Positions 1 to 62,476 of a DNA stretch of 64,000 nucleotides are shown piece after piece (within the stretch, counting starts at the first letter, position 1; each line of letters begins with the position of its first letter). The notes under the pieces were generated by a model. It was not told where the DNA came from and did not search any database. It saw nothing but the letters and a program-made list of their open reading frames with translations. This stretch comes from Ignavibacteria bacterium RIFOXYC2_FULL_35_21. GTDB lineage: Bacteria > Bacteroidota > Ignavibacteria > Kapaibacteriales > UBA2268. A program made the position numbers and the translations under genes. Location: the NCBI GenBank assembly GCA_001804705.1, contig MHAY01000015.1, forward strand, positions 1-64,000. The letters run 5' to 3'.

Positions 1-39
1 TCAGGACAAGACAATTTAATATATAAAATTATCCAAAAA

Positions 40-70
40 CAACCCCCTTACCCCCTTTGATAAGGGGGAA
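40..70. repeat. Dispersed G/C-tract palindromic repeat, copy upstream of queA
   Basis: A 31-bp element runs CCCCCTTACCCCCTTTG then ATAAGGGGG, a C-run/G-run inverted repeat. Near-identical copies occur at 527-557 (two differences, inside queA) and 5972-6002 (one difference). Its right end places AAGGGGG 4 bases before the queA ATG. Confidence 0.85.
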
Positions 71-72
71 TA

Positions 73-1479
73 ATGTCAGTACAAATTATGCTGGATGATT
101 ATATACCAAAAATAAATCTTGAAGAGTACAATTATGAATTGCCGCATGAAAAAATTGCAGAATACCCTTTAGAAGACCGTTCAAGCAGTAAACTGTTGTT
201 TGCAAATTCAACAACAAAAAAGATTTCACATCATAAATTTAAACAATTACCTGATTTAATACCTGCCGGTTCTTTACTAGTATTTAATACAACAAAAGTG
301 ATTCCAGCAAGACTATTATTAAATAAGCCGACGGGTGGATCGGTTGAGCTGCTGCTGGTTGAACCTGTTTTGGAAAATTCCCCTGAATCTTCCTTTTATA
401 AAGGGGGAAAAAATGCAGACCCACAGATTTCACTTAATATGAGAGGTGAATGCAGGTGGTTATGTATTATTGGTGGAAAAAGAGTAAGGGATGGATTGGT
501 ACTTTCTGTTGAAATTGAAAATATTAACAACCCCCTTACCCCCTTTGTTAAGGGAGAACACCTTGTTTTGAAAGCTGAAATACTCGAAAGAAAAGGGAAT
601 GAAGGAATTGTTCATTTTAACTGGAATCCTGCTAAACTTACTTTTGCCGAAGTGATTACCATGCTTGGTAAAATTCCATTACCACCTTACATAAAACGTG
701 AAGTCGAATTTAATGATAAAAGATGGTATCAGACTGTATATGCTCAATCGAATGGCTCTGTTGCCGCACCAACGGCGGGTTTCCATTTTACTAATGAAAT
801 AATTAAACAACTAAAAAATAAAAATATTCAAACAGAAAACATTGTTCTACATGTTGGCCCGGGCACTTTTAAACCGATTGATGTCGAAAACGTATATGAA
901 CATGAAATGCATTCGGAGAGAATTAGTGTATCGAAAGAAACAATAATCAACCTGATAGCTTATATTAGAAGTGTAGAAAATCCCCCTGAATCCCTCCTTC
1001 GACAAGCTCAGGACAAGCTCTTTGGTAAAGGGGGAAACCGTAGGATAATAGCTACGGGTACTACTACCCTGCGAACATTAGAATCTTTATATTGGATAGG
1101 CTGCAAAATTTTATTTAATAAACATCTTAAAAATGATGACATTCAAACATTAGAGCAGTGGGAAGCTTATGAAATAGCTAAAAATAATAAACTGCCTTTT
1201 GCCGATGAATCATTGAAAAAATTATTATTTTATATGTCAATTAATAATATAAATGAATTTACAGCAAGAACAAGCCTATTCATAATACCGGGTTATGATT
1301 TCAAAATAGTGAATGGCTTAATAACAAATTATCACCTTCCGAAAAGCACACTGCTCCTGCTCGTAGCGGCATTTACCGGCAAAGAGTTCCGGAAAGAGAT
1401 TTATGATTCTGCTTTAAATAATGATTATCGCTTTCTCAGCTACGGAGACTCATCGTTAATTACGAATTATGAATTATGA
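73..1479 (+). CDS. queA: S-adenosylmethionine:tRNA ribosyltransferase-isomerase
   Basis: QueA transfers and isomerises the ribosyl part of S-adenosylmethionine onto preQ1 in tRNA, giving epoxyqueuosine at the wobble base. Family motifs are plain: NTTKVIPARL near residue 72, VELLLVEP near 91, then APTAGFHFT, HVGPGTFKPI, ATGTTTLRTLES, NGLITNYHLPKSTLLLLVAAF (split across the C-terminal third) and YRFLSYGDSSLI at the end. At 468 residues it is longer than typical QueA (about 340-410). Part of the excess is three in-frame copies of a dispersed palindromic repeat, near residues 102-113, 152-162 and 303-322. The ATG at 73 follows an AAGGGGG tract supplied by a further repeat copy, which can act as the ribosome binding site. 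An in-frame ATG at 88 is a possible alternative start. Confidence 0.95.
   Translation: MSVQIMLDDYIPKINLEEYNYELPHEKIAEYPLEDRSSSKLLFANSTTKKISHHKFKQLPDLIPAGSLLVFNTTKVIPARLLLNKPTGGSVELLLVEPVLENSPESSFYKGGKNADPQISLNMRGECRWLCIIGGKRVRDGLVLSVEIENINNPLTPFVKGEHLVLKAEILERKGNEGIVHFNWNPAKLTFAEVITMLGKIPLPPYIKREVEFNDKRWYQTVYAQSNGSVAAPTAGFHFTNEIIKQLKNKNIQTENIVLHVGPGTFKPIDVENVYEHEMHSERISVSKETIINLIAYIRSVENPPESLLRQAQDKLFGKGGNRRIIATGTTTLRTLESLYWIGCKILFNKHLKNDDIQTLEQWEAYEIAKNNKLPFADESLKKLLFYMSINNINEFTARTSLFIIPGYDFKIVNGLITNYHLPKSTLLLLVAAFTGKEFRKEIYDSALNNDYRFLSYGDSSLITNYEL
378..409. repeat. Dispersed palindromic repeat inside queA (copy 1)
   Basis: This diverged member of the C-run/G-run repeat family has TTCCCC at one end and GGGGGAA at the other. 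It is read in frame within queA and encodes the segment around NSPESSFYKGGK, where other QueA proteins have no comparable low-complexity stretch. The reading frame stays open. Confidence 0.7.
527..557. repeat. Dispersed palindromic repeat inside queA (copy 2)
   Basis: This 31-bp copy matches the element at 40-70 with two differences. It lies in frame within queA and is translated as a segment containing PLTPFVKGE. The same sequence therefore serves as an upstream leader in one place and as coding sequence 490 bp later. Confidence 0.85.
979..1037. repeat. Composite repeat inside queA (copy 3)
   Basis: The flanks are the C-run (CCCCCTGAATCCC) and the G-run (GGTAAAGGGGGAA) of the palindromic family. 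Between them lies a member of a second family, CCTTCGACAAGCTCAGG, followed by a partial duplication of itself. The composite is read in frame and is translated as PPESLLRQAQDKLFGKGG. It looks like one repeat nested in another. Confidence 0.75.
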
Positions 1480-1552
1480 ATTACGAATGGTGGGTAATTA
1501 TTAATGAAAGAAATGTTTAATTTTGATATTTGTAATTGGGGAAAAATCGCAT

Positions 1553-2355: not shown

Positions 2356-5022
2356 ATGAAGGAAAAAGAAACACCATTGATGAGGCAGTATAGCCAGATG
2401 AAAAACAAGTATCCCGATACGATATTGCTTTTCCGTCTCGGTGATTTCTTTGAGACATTCAATGAAGATGCTGTTATAACATCTAAGGTATGCGGTATAA
2501 CCCTTACCAAAAGACACAACGGTTCGGCAGGTGAATGTCCTTTGGCAGGATTCCCCCATCATCAGCTCGATGCTTACCTTCCGAAATTAGTCAGAGCCGG
2601 TTATCGTGTCGCTGTATGCGAACAACTTGAAGACCCTAAACAGGCTCGTGGTATTGTCAGGCGTGGTGTGATTGAAGTCGTTACTCCCGGTGTTGCAATG
2701 TATGATAAGCTTCTCGAAACCAAGAAAAACAATTACGTGTGTGCAATCGTATTAAATAATTCAATCACAAATTTTATTGCAGGCATCGCCTGTGCAGATG
2801 TGTCAACAGGTGAATTCATCGTCTCTGAATTTTCAGCTCACTCAATTTTGCAAGTTCTGGAAACATTGACACCATCTGAAATAATCATCAGCAAGGAACA
2901 GAAAAACGAATTAATTGAAATACTAAATAAACTATCCTTCAAACCTCCTTTAACGAAACTCGAACCCTGGATATTCGATAATCAGTTCGGAAGAGAAGCT
3001 ATGCTCGGGCATTTCAAGACACAAAATCTTAAGGGATTCGGTATTGATGAATATTCTGTTGGAATTGCCGCCGCAGGAGCTATACTTCATTATATCAAAG
3101 AAACACAGAATGGTGAAATTAAACACCTGAAAAAAATATCATTGTATAATCCGTCTGAATTTATGATTCTGGATTATGCAACAAAAAGGAATCTTGAAAT
3201 CACTTTTTCTATGTTTGAAGGAACAAAAGAAGGAAGCCTTATATCAATAATTGACAAGACCTGCACCCCCATGGGAGGCAGACTGTTAAAAAAGTGGCTC
3301 ACAAGGCCTTTATTAAATATCGAGCAGATAAAGAAAAGACTCTCAGCCGTTCGTGTCTTATATGACAATGATAATAAAAGAAAAAATCTCAGAGAAACAT
3401 TACAGGAAATCGGAGATATTGAAAGGTTGATTTCAAAAATCTGCACAGGCAGGGCTAATCCGAGAGATGTTGTTGCTCTCAAATTAAGCATTGCGAAAAT
3501 TCCCGATATAAAAAAACAACTTGGAGCATTTAATTCTCAGCCTTTGAATACACTAATAAACAGGTTGGAAGATGTCAATGATGTTGTTGAAATGATTTCC
3601 AAATCAATGGTTGATGAACCATCTGTTCAGCTTGGAACAGGAAATGTTTTCAGGCACGGCTATTCATCAGGCCTCGATTCCTATGTAGATGCAAAAACCT
3701 CAGCAAAAGAATGGGTAAATGATTACCAGGAAAAAGAAAAACAGGAATCAGGAATTCCTTCACTTAAAGTTGGGTTCACCTCCGTTTTCGGATATTATAT
3801 CGAAATCACAAATGCTCACAAAGACAAGGTTCCTACCCGTTATGACAGGAAACAAACTCTTACTAATGCCGAAAGATATACTACTCCCGAATTAAAACAA
3901 TTCGAAGAGAAGATTCTTAATGCCGAGGAAAAAATATTAAAGTTTGAACAGGATTTATTCCAGGAACTCAGAAATAAAATTGCATTACATACAGAAAAAA
4001 TACAGGATAATGCAGGAACAATTTCAATTATTGACTGCCTGCAATGCTTTGCAGAAACTTCCAAGGAGAATAATTATAATGATCCTGAGATAGATGATTC
4101 AGACATTATTGATATTGTTGAAGGGAGACATCCTGTAGTAGAAAAATTATTAGAAATCGGAGAGAGTTTTCATCCTAATCCGACAAAACTCGATGCAAGC
4201 AATGAACAGATTCATATTATAACAGGGCCAAACATGTCAGGAAAATCATGTTACCTGCGGCAGGTTGCACTGATTGTATTATTAACACAGATTGGTTGTT
4301 TTGTGCCAGCAAAAAAAGCAAAAATAGGTTTGGTTGACAGAATATTCACACGAGTCGGTGCACAGGACAACATTACAGCCGGTGAAAGTACTTTTCTTGT
4401 GGAGATGCAGGAAGCGGCTAATATAATGAATAATGCAACTTCAAAAAGTTTGATACTCCTTGATGAAGTTGGAAGAGGAACTGCCACTTATGACGGTATT
4501 TCAATTGCATGGGCAATTACCGAACATATTCATGATACGATTGGTGCAAGAACTCTCTTTGCTACTCACTATCACGAATTAAATGACATTGCAAACAGGT
4601 ATGACAGGATTGTTAATTACAAAGTGGAAGTTGTCGAAGCCGGTGATACAATTATTTTTTCACACAGGGTAATGCCCGGAACAAGCGACCACTCATTTGG
4701 AATTCACGTTGCTCAAATGGCAGGATTGCCAATTGAAGTAACCGGCAGAGCTAATATAATTATGAAATCGCTTGAAGAAAGCAGTAAGGAAAATGGTAGT
4801 GGAGACCCTTCGACTTCGCTCAGGGTGACAGATACAGACACTAAAAGGATTGAAGTAAAAAAGGCAAGGCACATTCCCGACCAGCTTGCTATATTTGAAT
4901 TCAGGGATGATTTGTTGAGAGAGCAAATATTAAAAATAGAAATTGATAGCTTATCACCGCTTGAAGCATTAAAGACCTTGTCTGCCATGCAGAAAGAAGC
5001 GAGGAAGAAAATTAATAATTAA
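2356..5022 (+). CDS. mutS: DNA mismatch repair protein MutS
   Basis: MutS recognises base mismatches and small loops and couples this to ATP-driven recruitment of MutL. The N-terminal mismatch-binding motif is RLGDFFETF, with the Phe-X-Glu at residues 31-33. The connector, core and clamp follow. The ATPase has Walker A GPNMSGKS near 624 and Walker B LILLDEVGRG near 700, then the signature ATHYHEL. Length (888 residues) is normal. Around residues 817-827, in the linker before the C-terminal segment, an in-frame dispersed repeat is translated as DPSTSLRV. No strong Shine-Dalgarno precedes the ATG. The N-terminal sequence from MKEKETPLMRQY matches the family start. Confidence 0.97.
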   Translation: MKEKETPLMRQYSQMKNKYPDTILLFRLGDFFETFNEDAVITSKVCGITLTKRHNGSAGECPLAGFPHHQLDAYLPKLVRAGYRVAVCEQLEDPKQARGIVRRGVIEVVTPGVAMYDKLLETKKNNYVCAIVLNNSITNFIAGIACADVSTGEFIVSEFSAHSILQVLETLTPSEIIISKEQKNELIEILNKLSFKPPLTKLEPWIFDNQFGREAMLGHFKTQNLKGFGIDEYSVGIAAAGAILHYIKETQNGEIKHLKKISLYNPSEFMILDYATKRNLEITFSMFEGTKEGSLISIIDKTCTPMGGRLLKKWLTRPLLNIEQIKKRLSAVRVLYDNDNKRKNLRETLQEIGDIERLISKICTGRANPRDVVALKLSIAKIPDIKKQLGAFNSQPLNTLINRLEDVNDVVEMISKSMVDEPSVQLGTGNVFRHGYSSGLDSYVDAKTSAKEWVNDYQEKEKQESGIPSLKVGFTSVFGYYIEITNAHKDKVPTRYDRKQTLTNAERYTTPELKQFEEKILNAEEKILKFEQDLFQELRNKIALHTEKIQDNAGTISIIDCLQCFAETSKENNYNDPEIDDSDIIDIVEGRHPVVEKLLEIGESFHPNPTKLDASNEQIHIITGPNMSGKSCYLRQVALIVLLTQIGCFVPAKKAKIGLVDRIFTRVGAQDNITAGESTFLVEMQEAANIMNNATSKSLILLDEVGRGTATYDGISIAWAITEHIHDTIGARTLFATHYHELNDIANRYDRIVNYKVEVVEAGDTIIFSHRVMPGTSDHSFGIHVAQMAGLPIEVTGRANIIMKSLEESSKENGSGDPSTSLRVTDTDTKRIEVKKARHIPDQLAIFEFRDDLLREQILKIEIDSLSPLEALKTLSAMQKEARKKINN
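4806..4830. repeat. Dispersed repeat inside mutS
   Basis: CCCTTCGACTTCGCTCAGGG is followed by TGACA, a member of the family also seen at 61017-61038 and inside the queA composite repeat at 979-1037. It is read in frame in mutS near residues 817-827 without breaking the gene. Confidence 0.75.
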
Positions 5023-5947: not shown

Positions 5948-5971
5948 GTTGTTACTAATTAAGTTATTAAA

Positions 5972-6002
5972 CAACCCCCTAACCCCCTTTGATAAGGGGG
6001 AA
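5972..6002. repeat. Dispersed G/C-tract palindromic repeat upstream of the PorE-like gene
   Basis: A 31-bp copy differing at one position from that at 40-70. Its G-run lies 10 bp before the preferred ATG of the next gene, the second case in the window where this element abuts a translation start. Confidence 0.85.
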
Positions 6003-9172: not shown

Positions 9173-12100
9173 ATGAAGAAAGCATCACTTATTGTATTAT
9201 TTATAATACTACCTTTTTGCTTAAACATTTTAGCAAAAGACAAACCAAAAGAAAAAGATACAACAGACCTTATGGCTTCATCGGTTTTCAGCGGGCTGAA
9301 GCTGAGATTAGTAGGACCGGGTTTGACATCTGGCAGGATTGTTGATATTGCAGTCAATCCGAAAAACCACAGCGAATATTACCTCGCTGTTGCCTGCGGC
9401 GGCGTATGGAAAACCACAAATGCAGGACAGACATTCTCTCCTATTTTTGACGGGCAGGTTTCTTTCTCGATTGGATGCGTTACGATTGACCCGAACAATC
9501 CATTCGTAGTATGGGTTGGAACGGGCGAAAACAACAGCCAGAGAAGTGTCTCTTATGGTGATGGTATTTACAAATCCATTGACGGCGGAAAAAGCTGGAC
9601 AAATATGGGATTGAAAAAATCCGAACATATAGGCAAAATTCTGGTTGACCCACGAAATTCAAATGTCGTATATGTAGCCGCACAGGGACCACTCTGGGGA
9701 CCCGGTGGCGATAGAGGCTTATATAAAACAGCGGATGGAGGGAAGAATTGGGAGAAAGTTCTGACTATCAGCGATAACACAGGTGTTTCTGATATAGTAT
9801 TTGACCCTCGCTGTCCCGATGTGATTTATGCTTCATCATACCAGAGAAGAAGACACGTGTGGACATTGATTGACGGCGGTCCCGAAGGTGCAATATACAA
9901 ATCGGTTGATGCAGGAAAAACATTTGATAAGCTGACAAACGGATTACCAAGCGGGTATGTAGGAAGAATCGGGCTTGCCGTCTCCCCTGTTAATCCTGAT
10001 ATGGTTTATGCCCTAATTGAAACAGCCGATGACAAAGGAGGTTTTTACCGTTCCACCGACAGAGGGGCATCATGGGAAAAAAGAAAAAGTTATTCTACAC
10101 CGGGAGCACAATACTACCAGGAGATTGTCTGCGACCTAAAGGATGCCGATAAAGTATATTCACTCGAAACTTATTTCCAGGTTTCCGAGGATGGCTGTAA
10201 GACATTCCGCCGAGTTGGAAACAAACACAGGCATGTTGATGACCACGCACTCTGGATTGACCCTGACGACACAAAACACTTGATAGTCGGTGGTGACGGA
10301 GGATTATATGAAACTTTTGATATGGAGAATTGGCGTCACGTTGATAATCTTCCTGTTACACAATTCTACCGTATCACAGCAGATAATTCGGAACCGTTTT
10401 ACTATGTTTATGGCGGCACACAGGACAATTCCACATGGGGAGGACCTTCGAGAACTACTAATTCCGGTGGTATCACTAATGATGAGTGGTTCCTCGTTGT
10501 CGGCGGAGACGGATATAAATCGCAGGTTGACCCCAAAGACCCTAATATCGTTTATGGTGAATTTCAGTATGGCGGGCTTGTCAGATTTGACAGAAAGAGC
10601 GGCGAAGCAATGTTCATTCAGCCACAGCCGGAAAAAGGTGAGGCTCACCGCTGGAACTGGGATACTCCCCTGCTGATTAGCCCTCATTCAAATACCAGAT
10701 TATATTTTGCTGCAAATAAATTGTTCAGAAGTGATGACAGGGGAAACACATGGACAACCATTAGTGGGGACCTTACACGTCAGATAGACAGAAACCAGTT
10801 AAAAGTTATGGACAAGGTTTGGGACCCTGAAGCTGTAGCAAAGAATGTATCTACTTCGTTATTTGGAAACATTGTTTCAATGATGGAATCTCCTGTTAAA
10901 GAAAATCTAATATATATTGGAACTGATGATGGTTTGATACAAGTAACAGAAGACGGGGGAAAAAACTGGAGAAAAATTGAAAAGTTTGAAGGAGTGCCTG
11001 AAACAACTTATGTTTCTGAGGTGTACGCTTCACTGCATAATGAGAATGTAGTTTATGCAGCTTATGATAATCATAAGAATAACGACTTCCTGCCATACAT
11101 TTTGAAAAGTAATGACAAAGGACAAACATGGACATCAATTGCCGGTAATCTACCGAAGAATGGTTCAGTATATACAATACAGGAAGATTTTGTAAATCCC
11201 GATTTGTTATTCGCAGGAACTGAGTTTGCATTATTTTTTACAATTGACGGTGGAAAGAAATGGATACAACTCAAAAGCGGTTTACCTCCAATTGCAGTGA
11301 GAGACCTTGAACTGCAAAAACGAGAGAATGATTTAATTGTCGGAACTTTCGGAAGAGGTATATACATACTTGATGATTACACACCTTTGAGGAATATCAA
11401 TCAGGAACAACTCGAGAAAGAAGCTTTCATGTTTCCAATTAAAGATGCCTTGATGTATGTGCAGGATGATTCGAAAGTAAAACACGACTTAGGCGAAACA
11501 TTTTACCGTGCCGATAATCCTCCGTTTGGTGCTATATTCACTTATTATCTGAAAGATTCTTACAAGACAAAAAAGGATTTGCGCAAAGAGGAAGAAAAGA
11601 AAGCCGAAAAAGATGGAAAACAAGTAAAATATCCTACACTTGAAGAATTAACCCAGGAGGATATTGAAGAAGCACCATACCTGATTTTCACAATTACGGA
11701 TGAGAGTGGGTATATTATTAGGAAATTAAAAACATCCGCTTCAAAAGGTATAAACCGGCTCACATGGGATTTGACTTATGCTTCACCTTTTCCGGTTGAT
11801 GAAAAAACAGACCCGAATAAACAAAATGGTATGCCGGTATTACCGGGTAAATACAAAGTCTATTTGTCAAAGAGTATCAATGGTGAAATCACTCAATTGA
11901 CTGAACCTGTTGAGTTCACCTGCAAAGTATTGAAGAATGCCACTCTACCGGCAGGAAACAGGAATGAGCTTGTAGATTTTCAGAAGAAAGTAGCAAACTC
12001 ACAGAAAGTGATATATGCTATTACAAATATTCTGACCGAAACAAAGAAGGAAGTGAAACTTATAAAGACGGCTTTGTTGGCTTCTGAAGGAACTCCGAAA

Positions 12101-36356: not shown

Positions 36357-36442
36357 ATTGATTGCTTTCTGAGCAAAGCGAAAAATCAATAAATAGTACC
36401 TATTAAGTTGCCCCCTTTTTCAAAGGGGGATTAAGGGGGTTT
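36357..36442. repeat. Two dispersed repeats between serA and DUF1015 gene
   Basis: At 36357-36390 is an inverted repeat, ATTGATTG...CAATCAAT-type, with GCTTTCTGAGCAAAGCG at its centre. At 36411-36440 is a C-run/G-run member (CCCCCTTTTTCAAAGGGGG then ATTAAGGGGG). Both belong to the families seen near queA and at 24220. Confidence 0.75.
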
Positions 36443-60851: not shown

Positions 60852-61207
60852 TTGAGGACCTATAAATTAATTTGATTAATAAAAAATCTAAATATAAGCA
60901 AAAGGCTAATCTCTTAAAAGAATTGCCTTTGATAATTTTTTTACTCAGTTCATTAATTTTTTTAAATTACAGAACTTTCACTCTCTGCTTCTTAGCGTCC
61001 CGGTGTAATAAAAAATCCTTCGATAAGCTCAGGGTAACAAGGTTATGAGTATTTAAAAAATTCTCAAAGACACAGGAAATTGTTATTTTTGATTTGTTGT
61101 AAGGTTGTCTTGATTTGACTTGATATTTGATGTAAATAAAACAACACCCTGAATCCCCCTTGGATAAGGGGGAACTTTCAAAATGATAATTTTCAAAAAT
61201 AGGAGAT
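60852..61207. other. Divergent intergenic region before aconitase X genes
   Basis: 356 bp between divergent transcription units. It contains a CCTTCGATAAGCTCAGGG repeat at 61017-61038 and a C-run/G-run member at 61146-61174 (CCCCCTTGGATAAGGGGG core). An AGGAG site directly precedes the aconitase X start. Promoters are not identified. Confidence 0.6.
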
Positions 61208-62476
61208 ATGATGAAACTTACGGGTGAAGAGAAAGAGATGCTTGGCGGGAAGGAAGGTCCCGTAGTTGCTGAGGCGATTGATTACCTTGTGCAATTCGGA
61301 GAGGCATTCGGTGCCGAAAAGCTGATTGATATTGTTTATTGTCACTACCCTGCCGAGATGGGGATTTATGAAGGGATGGTGGAGGAAGCAGTCGGGTATT
61401 CAAATACCGGAGTGAGAGTAAAAGTACCTACGACTTCATCTACCTTATGCTCGGATTTGGAAAAACCTGAAATCACAGACATACCAAAACCACTTGCCGA
61501 GCTTCAGGCAAAGATAGAGCCTGCACACAGAAGAATGGGCATACTCGAGACATACACATGCACACCGCAGTTACTTGGATTCATACCTCCGTTCGGCTCT
61601 TATAATGCATTGGTCGAAAGCAGTGCTATTATATATTATAATTCCGTGCTTGGTGCAAGAACGAACCGTGGTGGCATGTTTACACGCTTTTCGGCAGTAA
61701 CGGGAAAATATCCTCTGATGGGCTACCTGCTGGATGAAAACAGGAAAGGCACTCATTTGTTCAAAGTGAAACTACCGACTGAAATGCTGGAAAACTATGA
61801 TGTGTGGTGTGCATTGGGATTTCATATTGGCAACATAGTCGGAAGTGATGTACCGGTGATTGATGTCCCAATTAAACACGTGAAACAGGAGTGGCTTCTA
61901 GGGCTTGGAGCCACACTGGCAACAGCAGGCTCTGTAACGCTTTTTCATATACCCGGGGTAACACCAGAAGCAAGAACAATCGAGGAGGCATTTCACGGTG
62001 ATGTTCCGAAAGATTATTATGAAGTAACAGAAAAAGAAATTAATGTTATTTACAAAAAACTAACAACTATTGAAAACGGGGCAGAAATTGATTTCGTTAA
62101 TTTAGGATGTCCGCATTATAACCTCGAGCAAATCAGGTATGTGGCTGATAAGTTAGACGGAAAGCGGGTTGCGGATGGTGTACGGTGCTGGATATGTACA
62201 AATAGAATGACACGCAAGCAGGCTGAGTATTCGGGTTTTGTCGAAAAAATTGAAAGAGCCGGAGCAAAGGTTATTGCCGATACATGTCCCGTGGAAAGCC
62301 ATATGAGAATTTCGACCTGCAAGGACTTTGGATTAAAGACACCGAATGTAGATGCCATGGTATGCAATAGTGGAAAAATGTTGAGGTATGTCGGAGATTT
62401 GATTGGATGCAAGACTGCATTGACAAACATTGATAAGTGCATTGAGTCGGCAATCACAGGGAGGTTTGAATTATGA
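61208..62476 (+). CDS. Aconitase X catalytic (large) subunit
   Basis: A 422-residue AcnX-type dehydratase. It begins KLTGEEKEMLGGKEGP and carries ETYTCTPQLLGFIPPFG near 119, GARTNRGGMFTRF near 152, NLGCPHYNLEQI near 299 and ADTCPVESHMRI near 357, giving cysteines expected to hold an iron-sulfur cluster. Related enzymes are archaeal phosphomevalonate dehydratase and bacterial cis-3-hydroxyproline dehydratase. The substrate cannot be told here. ATG 61208 is directly followed by a second ATG; an AGGAG site precedes them. It overlaps the small subunit by 4 bp. Confidence 0.88.
   Translation: MMKLTGEEKEMLGGKEGPVVAEAIDYLVQFGEAFGAEKLIDIVYCHYPAEMGIYEGMVEEAVGYSNTGVRVKVPTTSSTLCSDLEKPEITDIPKPLAELQAKIEPAHRRMGILETYTCTPQLLGFIPPFGSYNALVESSAIIYYNSVLGARTNRGGMFTRFSAVTGKYPLMGYLLDENRKGTHLFKVKLPTEMLENYDVWCALGFHIGNIVGSDVPVIDVPIKHVKQEWLLGLGATLATAGSVTLFHIPGVTPEARTIEEAFHGDVPKDYYEVTEKEINVIYKKLTTIENGAEIDFVNLGCPHYNLEQIRYVADKLDGKRVADGVRCWICTNRMTRKQAEYSGFVEKIERAGAKVIADTCPVESHMRISTCKDFGLKTPNVDAMVCNSGKMLRYVGDLIGCKTALTNIDKCIESAITGRFEL

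Follow-up and report, generated by a model that had tools for sequence, protein, structure and literature searches.

The queA gene in the window (positions 1-64,000 of contig MHAY01000015.1, the whole stretch of DNA analysed; coordinates refer to it unless a locus is named) carries three short palindromic repeats that are translated in frame. We attribute them, with a probability of about 0.85, to REP-like mobile palindromes that are purged from genes except where they enter tolerant loops in frame, and that drift thereafter. The in-frame insertion, the empty sites in relatives, the relative ages, the depletion in genes, the flat codon-position divergence, and the position in loops of a predicted model are direct observations.

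The history that we propose is as follows. The main repeat, family A, and its co-resident palindromes would be REP-like elements, small, mobile, and non-autonomous, which insert widely and are purged by selection from nearly all genes in which they land. Surviving genic copies would be those that keep the frame, carry an open frame, and lie in a linker or a surface loop. After fixation, a copy would persist through speciation and drift without constraint at the protein level; occasionally it would duplicate in tandem, take up a nested element, or have its site taken over by a different palindrome. QueA would thus have been hit at least four times, by three family A insertions and one nested family C core.

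Three translated palindromes in queA and their ages

The ORF at 73-1479 is identified as QueA by a TIGR00113 score of 314.8 bits, which exceeds the cut-off of 267.45 bits. The features of the gene are:
38-70, forward strand: family A palindrome, 33 nt, just upstream of queA
73-1479, forward strand: queA (long QueA paralog, 468 aa), carrying three inserts
376-411, forward strand: insert 1, in-frame family A, peptide NSPESSFYKGGK
523-558, forward strand: insert 2, in-frame family A, exactly 12 codons, peptide INNPLTPFVKGE
979-1035, forward strand: insert 3, in-frame compound of 19 codons, NPPESLLRQAQDKLFGKGG
997-1020, forward strand: family C core nested in insert 3, CTTCGACAAGCTCAGGACAAGCTC, 24 nt, frame kept

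All three copies lie on the sense strand, and the repeat is 31-36 nt long. The first-pass annotation described three in-frame palindromes in queA, one of them nearly identical to the element in front of the gene, and we find both: the copy at 526-558 shares 94% identity with the upstream copy. Its assignment of the three to a single repeat family holds in that family A is present at every site, but not at site 3, where family A arms AATCCCCCTGAATCC...TTTGGTAAAGGGGGAA surround the family C core. Two QueA paralogs are present in genomes of the order: the window gene belongs to the long type (about 400-470 aa), and the other type is short, at about 350-375 aa (observed at G000:C64:60550-61587 and in relatives).

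To place the inserts on the protein, we use an AlphaFold2 model built from 20 aligned QueA sequences. The fold is intact and well modelled (pTM 0.83). Residues 103-113 and 308-320 have pLDDT values below 50, and the mean over the block around 151-160 is 55; these low-confidence segments (pLDDT about 40-60) are the inserts, placed between regular elements. Alignments to the best PDB relatives (1vky, 1yy3, and 1wdi) extend over both flanks of the inserts but leave the inserts themselves uncovered. All family-invariant QueA residues are intact, including those flanking the inserts. In the predicted model, then, all three inserts are in low-confidence loops of an intact fold, in agreement with the earlier proposal of intact motifs around insertions in tolerant loops.

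QueA was aligned with 24 relatives from the same genus, family, and order, with codon alignments for the insert sites; a search among named genomes finds no close QueA relative. The congeners compared are G001 (the nearest species), G002, and G003. At site 1, a 12-codon segment is present in G001 and G002 and an 11-codon segment in G003, and no other genus has it; G001 still reads AAT CTC GCT GAA TCC CAC TTT AAT AAA GCG GGA AAA. No relative compared has an insert at site 2, so that insert 2 occurs only in this genome. Site 3 holds 19 codons here, a decayed 11-codon family A insert in G001, and none in G002 and G003; G015, of another genus, has a short unrelated-looking extension nearby. At the level of sequence, the alignment proves that the segments are insertions, and QueA proteins from the rest of the family and order, outside the genus, lack them. 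The refuting outcome named in the first-pass annotation, conservation of the segments in distant relatives, is therefore not seen.

Judged from the same alignment, insertion at site 1 goes back to the ancestor of the genus and that at site 3 to the ancestor common with G001. From presence and absence among the congeners, site 1 was filled first and site 3 next; the family C core and insert 2 followed, unordered relative to each other. Insert 1, which differs from the nearest subfamily consensus by 4 substitutions in 36 nt (counted by eye), is by this dating the oldest of the three. The insertions claimed earlier are therefore borne out, but they are not of equal age. Since the compound A/C form is also found elsewhere in this genome and in G001, insert 3 may come from conversion rather than from fresh nesting.

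Palindromes in other genes, their strand, and their probable mobility

Matches to the family A core far exceed chance: 5 with at most 3 mismatches in the window (0.07 expected) and 102 with at most 2 mismatches in the genome of 4.15 Mb, against 0 when the sequence is reversed. The gene survey covers 1.57 Mb of this genome, with sampling that favoured contigs with family A matches. There, a family A profile (nhmmer) gives 134 matches of at least 12 bits and 0 in reversed sequence; in-ORF matches weaker than about 12 bits were treated as chance and left out. After merging, 98 copies are intergenic and 21 genic, a density of 0.016 per kb in genes and 0.38 per kb between genes, which is 24-fold lower inside genes. 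Apart from those at queA, family A copies in the window are:
5970-6002, forward strand: between genes, at the start of the next ORF
36410-36442, reverse strand: intergenic
61142-61174, forward strand: intergenic, upstream of the ORF at 61208

Across the 1.57 Mb, about 20 genes recognised by Pfam contain in-frame palindromes, which belong to family A or to one of four other families; ORFs with an element before the first ATG (in L077, L126, L134, and L118) were left out of the validated set. queA is not special among the genes of this uncultured bacterium. Each insert adds a loop of 8-19 residues; the enzymes affected include QueA (three times), MutS, valyl-tRNA synthetase (ValS), and AroE-AroK. 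Pfam-recognised hosts of in-frame family A include a carbamoyltransferase, a molybdopterin-binding dehydrogenase, an FAD oxidase, and RNase R, with two copies each in a laccase-like protein and a UvrD/PDDEXK helicase-nuclease. ValS holds two family A copies and one family C copy in frame, as does a chorismatase-like gene. The AroE-AroK fusion gene (L110:14349-15842) holds five in-frame palindromes (three A, one Cb, and one F), all with counterparts in G001. Family C, read as DPSTSLRVT or FDxAQxDK, is found in MutS, ABC-F, RecN, a sigma-70 factor, a GGDEF protein, an OmpA protein, and an FAD-binding dehydrogenase subunit. Family D (MSGVTPD) is in frame in an aminotransferase and other genes, and family F in DHQ synthase. 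One of these copies lies in the window:
4807-4830, forward strand: family C insert (TGTC-tagged, CGTC-REP-like) in mutS, peptide DPSTSLRVT

A tandem AATTACG-type heptamer builds the QueA C-terminus (ITNYEL; window 1456-1492, common to G001), and the same type of heptamer is in frame in the chorismatase-like gene (L110, about 10330-10375; GGITNYELRITNGG).

For 15 further genes, congener orthologs were aligned; at most of them, the orthologous sites are empty or decayed. Many inserts, including ones in AroE-AroK, ValS, the aminotransferase, MutS (decayed in G001), and DHQ synthase, are common to G001 and absent in G002 and G003. The family C insert in ValS and the ABC-F insert are unique to this genome, and sharing is older for RNase R, the laccase, and a metallophosphatase. 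Inserts have grown in tandem in the helicase and FAD oxidase of G001 and in the metallophosphatase of G003. At the molybdopterin dehydrogenase and carbamoyltransferase sites, where this genome has family A, G001 has a relative of it, family H (THPLIPSQEGK), which is dispersed and occurs in G018 too, and the ValS family A site in G003 holds a seemingly decayed family C.

Both main families favour the sense strand inside genes. Sense to antisense counts for family A are 18:3 in genes versus 23:28 between co-directional genes (Fisher p 0.0017); for family C they are 14:1 versus 12:24 (Fisher p 1e-4). A purely neutral model blind to orientation does not predict this bias, which counts against our explanation in that form. 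Stop codons are rejected as its cause, because mean open frames favour antisense for family A (1.58 sense, 2.24 antisense) and are about equal for family C (1.96 and 1.99). RNA hairpin stability is likewise rejected, as a clear difference is seen in one subfamily only. Both open sense frames of family A, NPPESPFDKGG and IPLNPPLIKGE, are in use; therefore a peptide preference is unlikely as the sole cause.

The bias could instead reflect strand-specific entry, with sense insertion into transcribed genes by single-strand transposition or an RNA-linked route. The sense excess in genes and its lack between them, its persistence when each validated gene is counted once (10:2 for family A, p 0.024; 10:0 for family C, p 1.6e-4), the stop-codon prediction, and the use of both sense frames point that way. 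However, spacers between co-directional genes carry no sense bias, some antisense in-frame copies persist (that in the metallophosphatase in three congeners), and copies within a clade are non-independent. We consider this route unlikely, though the most serious alternative. A broader form, in which strand-aware entry is coupled to re-use of the same in-protein sites, families replace or nest in one another, and loops act as long-lived docking sites, seems to us equally doubtful.

Family A is patchy, being strong here and in a few genera (9 of 247 phylum genomes at a strict cut-off). An exact 28-nt match occurs in two named records, both Bacteroidetes/Bacteroidota MAGs distantly related to this genome. 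Also against purge and drift, the family A-rich G018 has almost none inside genes. Of its sampled copies, 71/73 are intergenic and 0 are sense in a gene, and the share in genes is 2/73, versus 21/119 here (p 0.002). In this sister genus (loci L234-L253), about 305 family A cores, nearly all intergenic, often form inverted pairs 30-40 nt apart, REPIN/BIME-like.

Family A may be moved by a Y1/HUH or similar enzyme. PF01797 (Y1/RAYT) matches occur at six places in this genome, at least two of them among family D and E palindromes in a REPtron-like arrangement and others beside further repeats; the RAYT genes examined have either other palindromes or no palindromes at their flanks. None of the six has family A beside it, and across genomes the number of RAYT matches does not follow that of family A cores (G007 has 14 and 2, respectively). 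RAYT is therefore rejected as the family A driver. That none of the transposases could be linked to family A counts against our explanation, as does the lack of a readable target-site duplication. REPtron-like Y1/RAYT loci are L108 (G000:C72:25001-36476), L107, and L104; in L078 and L108, runs of N lie inside the repeats flanking two transposase genes.

Selection on the inserts

Fifteen inserts common with G001 were compared with the rest of the same genes by identity at each codon position. Values are 0.84/0.85/0.81 for the inserts and 0.89/0.92/0.64 for the flanks. The second position is less conserved in the elements than in the flanks (p 9e-4), as is the first, and across these 15 inserts codon-position identity with G001 gives no sign of amino-acid constraint. 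Because the shared inserts lack a codon-position signal, the inserted peptides look unselected, and they are presumably neutral for enzyme function.

A function maintained by selection, as an mRNA hairpin or as a peptide, is improbable. Third-position identity in the elements does exceed that of the flanks (0.81 versus 0.64, p 7e-6), which is suggestive of slower decay at the DNA level, and some elements are near-identical between species (23/24 nt in the aminotransferase, 35/36 nt in the helicase). However, the third-position value is confounded, in that our own copies were picked by likeness to the consensus, and such a choice by profile score itself lowers divergence; we do not accept DNA-level purifying selection as proven. 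The lower conservation at first and second positions argues against peptide constraint, the insert is often missing from G002 and G003, and RNA hairpin energies give no consistent separation of sense and antisense copies.

An assembly or binning artefact, or decay of queA to a pseudogene, is scarcely credible: the assembly is fragmented (105 contigs) and some relatives have repeats at the ends of contigs, but independent congener assemblies have the same inserts at the same sites, and queA keeps 468 open codons, every family-invariant residue, and a gene-body codon-position identity of 0.81/0.91/0.59, as in a gene under selection.

Relation to known repeat systems

In-frame palindromes in unrelated genes, apparently tolerated by the proteins, are described for Rickettsia palindromic elements (PMC10969869, PMC3733652). 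As there, dispersed palindromes lie here in frame in unrelated functional genes, with empty sites in relatives. Unlike those elements (about 150 bp, Rickettsia), ours are 21-36 nt, belong to a Bacteroidota-like lineage, comprise several families at once, and offer dated orthologous sites with tandem or nested growth. The earlier description of a different repeat in a different lineage is thus correct. Its Rickettsia precedent is real but not confined to that genus: intragenic in-frame GTAG and CGTC REPs occur in many species, for example Opitutus terrae and R. conorii (PMC3733652).

According to the same source, GTAG/CGTC REPs are 20-40 nt palindromes, mostly intergenic and some in ORFs, with hosts that include tRNA synthetases and UvrD/RecB-type genes, and in recB, two Xanthomonas species have different REPs at nearly the same position (PMC3733652). 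Short palindromes are likewise in frame in tRNA synthetase and UvrD-type genes here. The available text of PMC3733652 contains no description that we found of strand bias or codon-position neutrality for intragenic GTAG/CGTC REPs. The kind of event is already known; what stands out here is the unusual density, the dating by sister species, and the strand bias.

These inserts form a dated series (recent, middle, and old) of peptide insertions in conserved enzymes of a lineage outside Rickettsia, and therefore make it possible to measure how fast selfish DNA turns into neutral protein sequence. The sense pattern in genes, absent between genes and opposite to the stop-codon prediction for family A, is a lead on how the elements move. 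In many proteins of such genomes, loops of this unselected kind will be encountered during alignment-based annotation and structure prediction.

The families differ in their likeness to known classes. The PF01797 genes flanked by families D and E resemble RAYT/REPtron systems, unlike family A, which lies beside none of the six matches (PMC6006769). As regards MITEs, which would have terminal inverted repeats and a target-site duplication, only a short hairpin is seen here, and the relatives are too diverged for a duplication to be read. Family A copies carry neither the GTAG tag nor, at either end, the CGTC/TGTC tag. In families C, Cb, and F, the likeness is to CGTC REPs, in the TGTC variant; the marks of CGTC REPs are a CGTC/TGTC tag, an 8-9 bp stem with AT first, and a CCA tail. 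By inspection, families C and Cb have the TGTC tag and an imperfect stem, and family F, read on the other strand as TGTC-ATTCTGAA-loop-TTCAGAAT-CCA, fits the CGTC REP layout.
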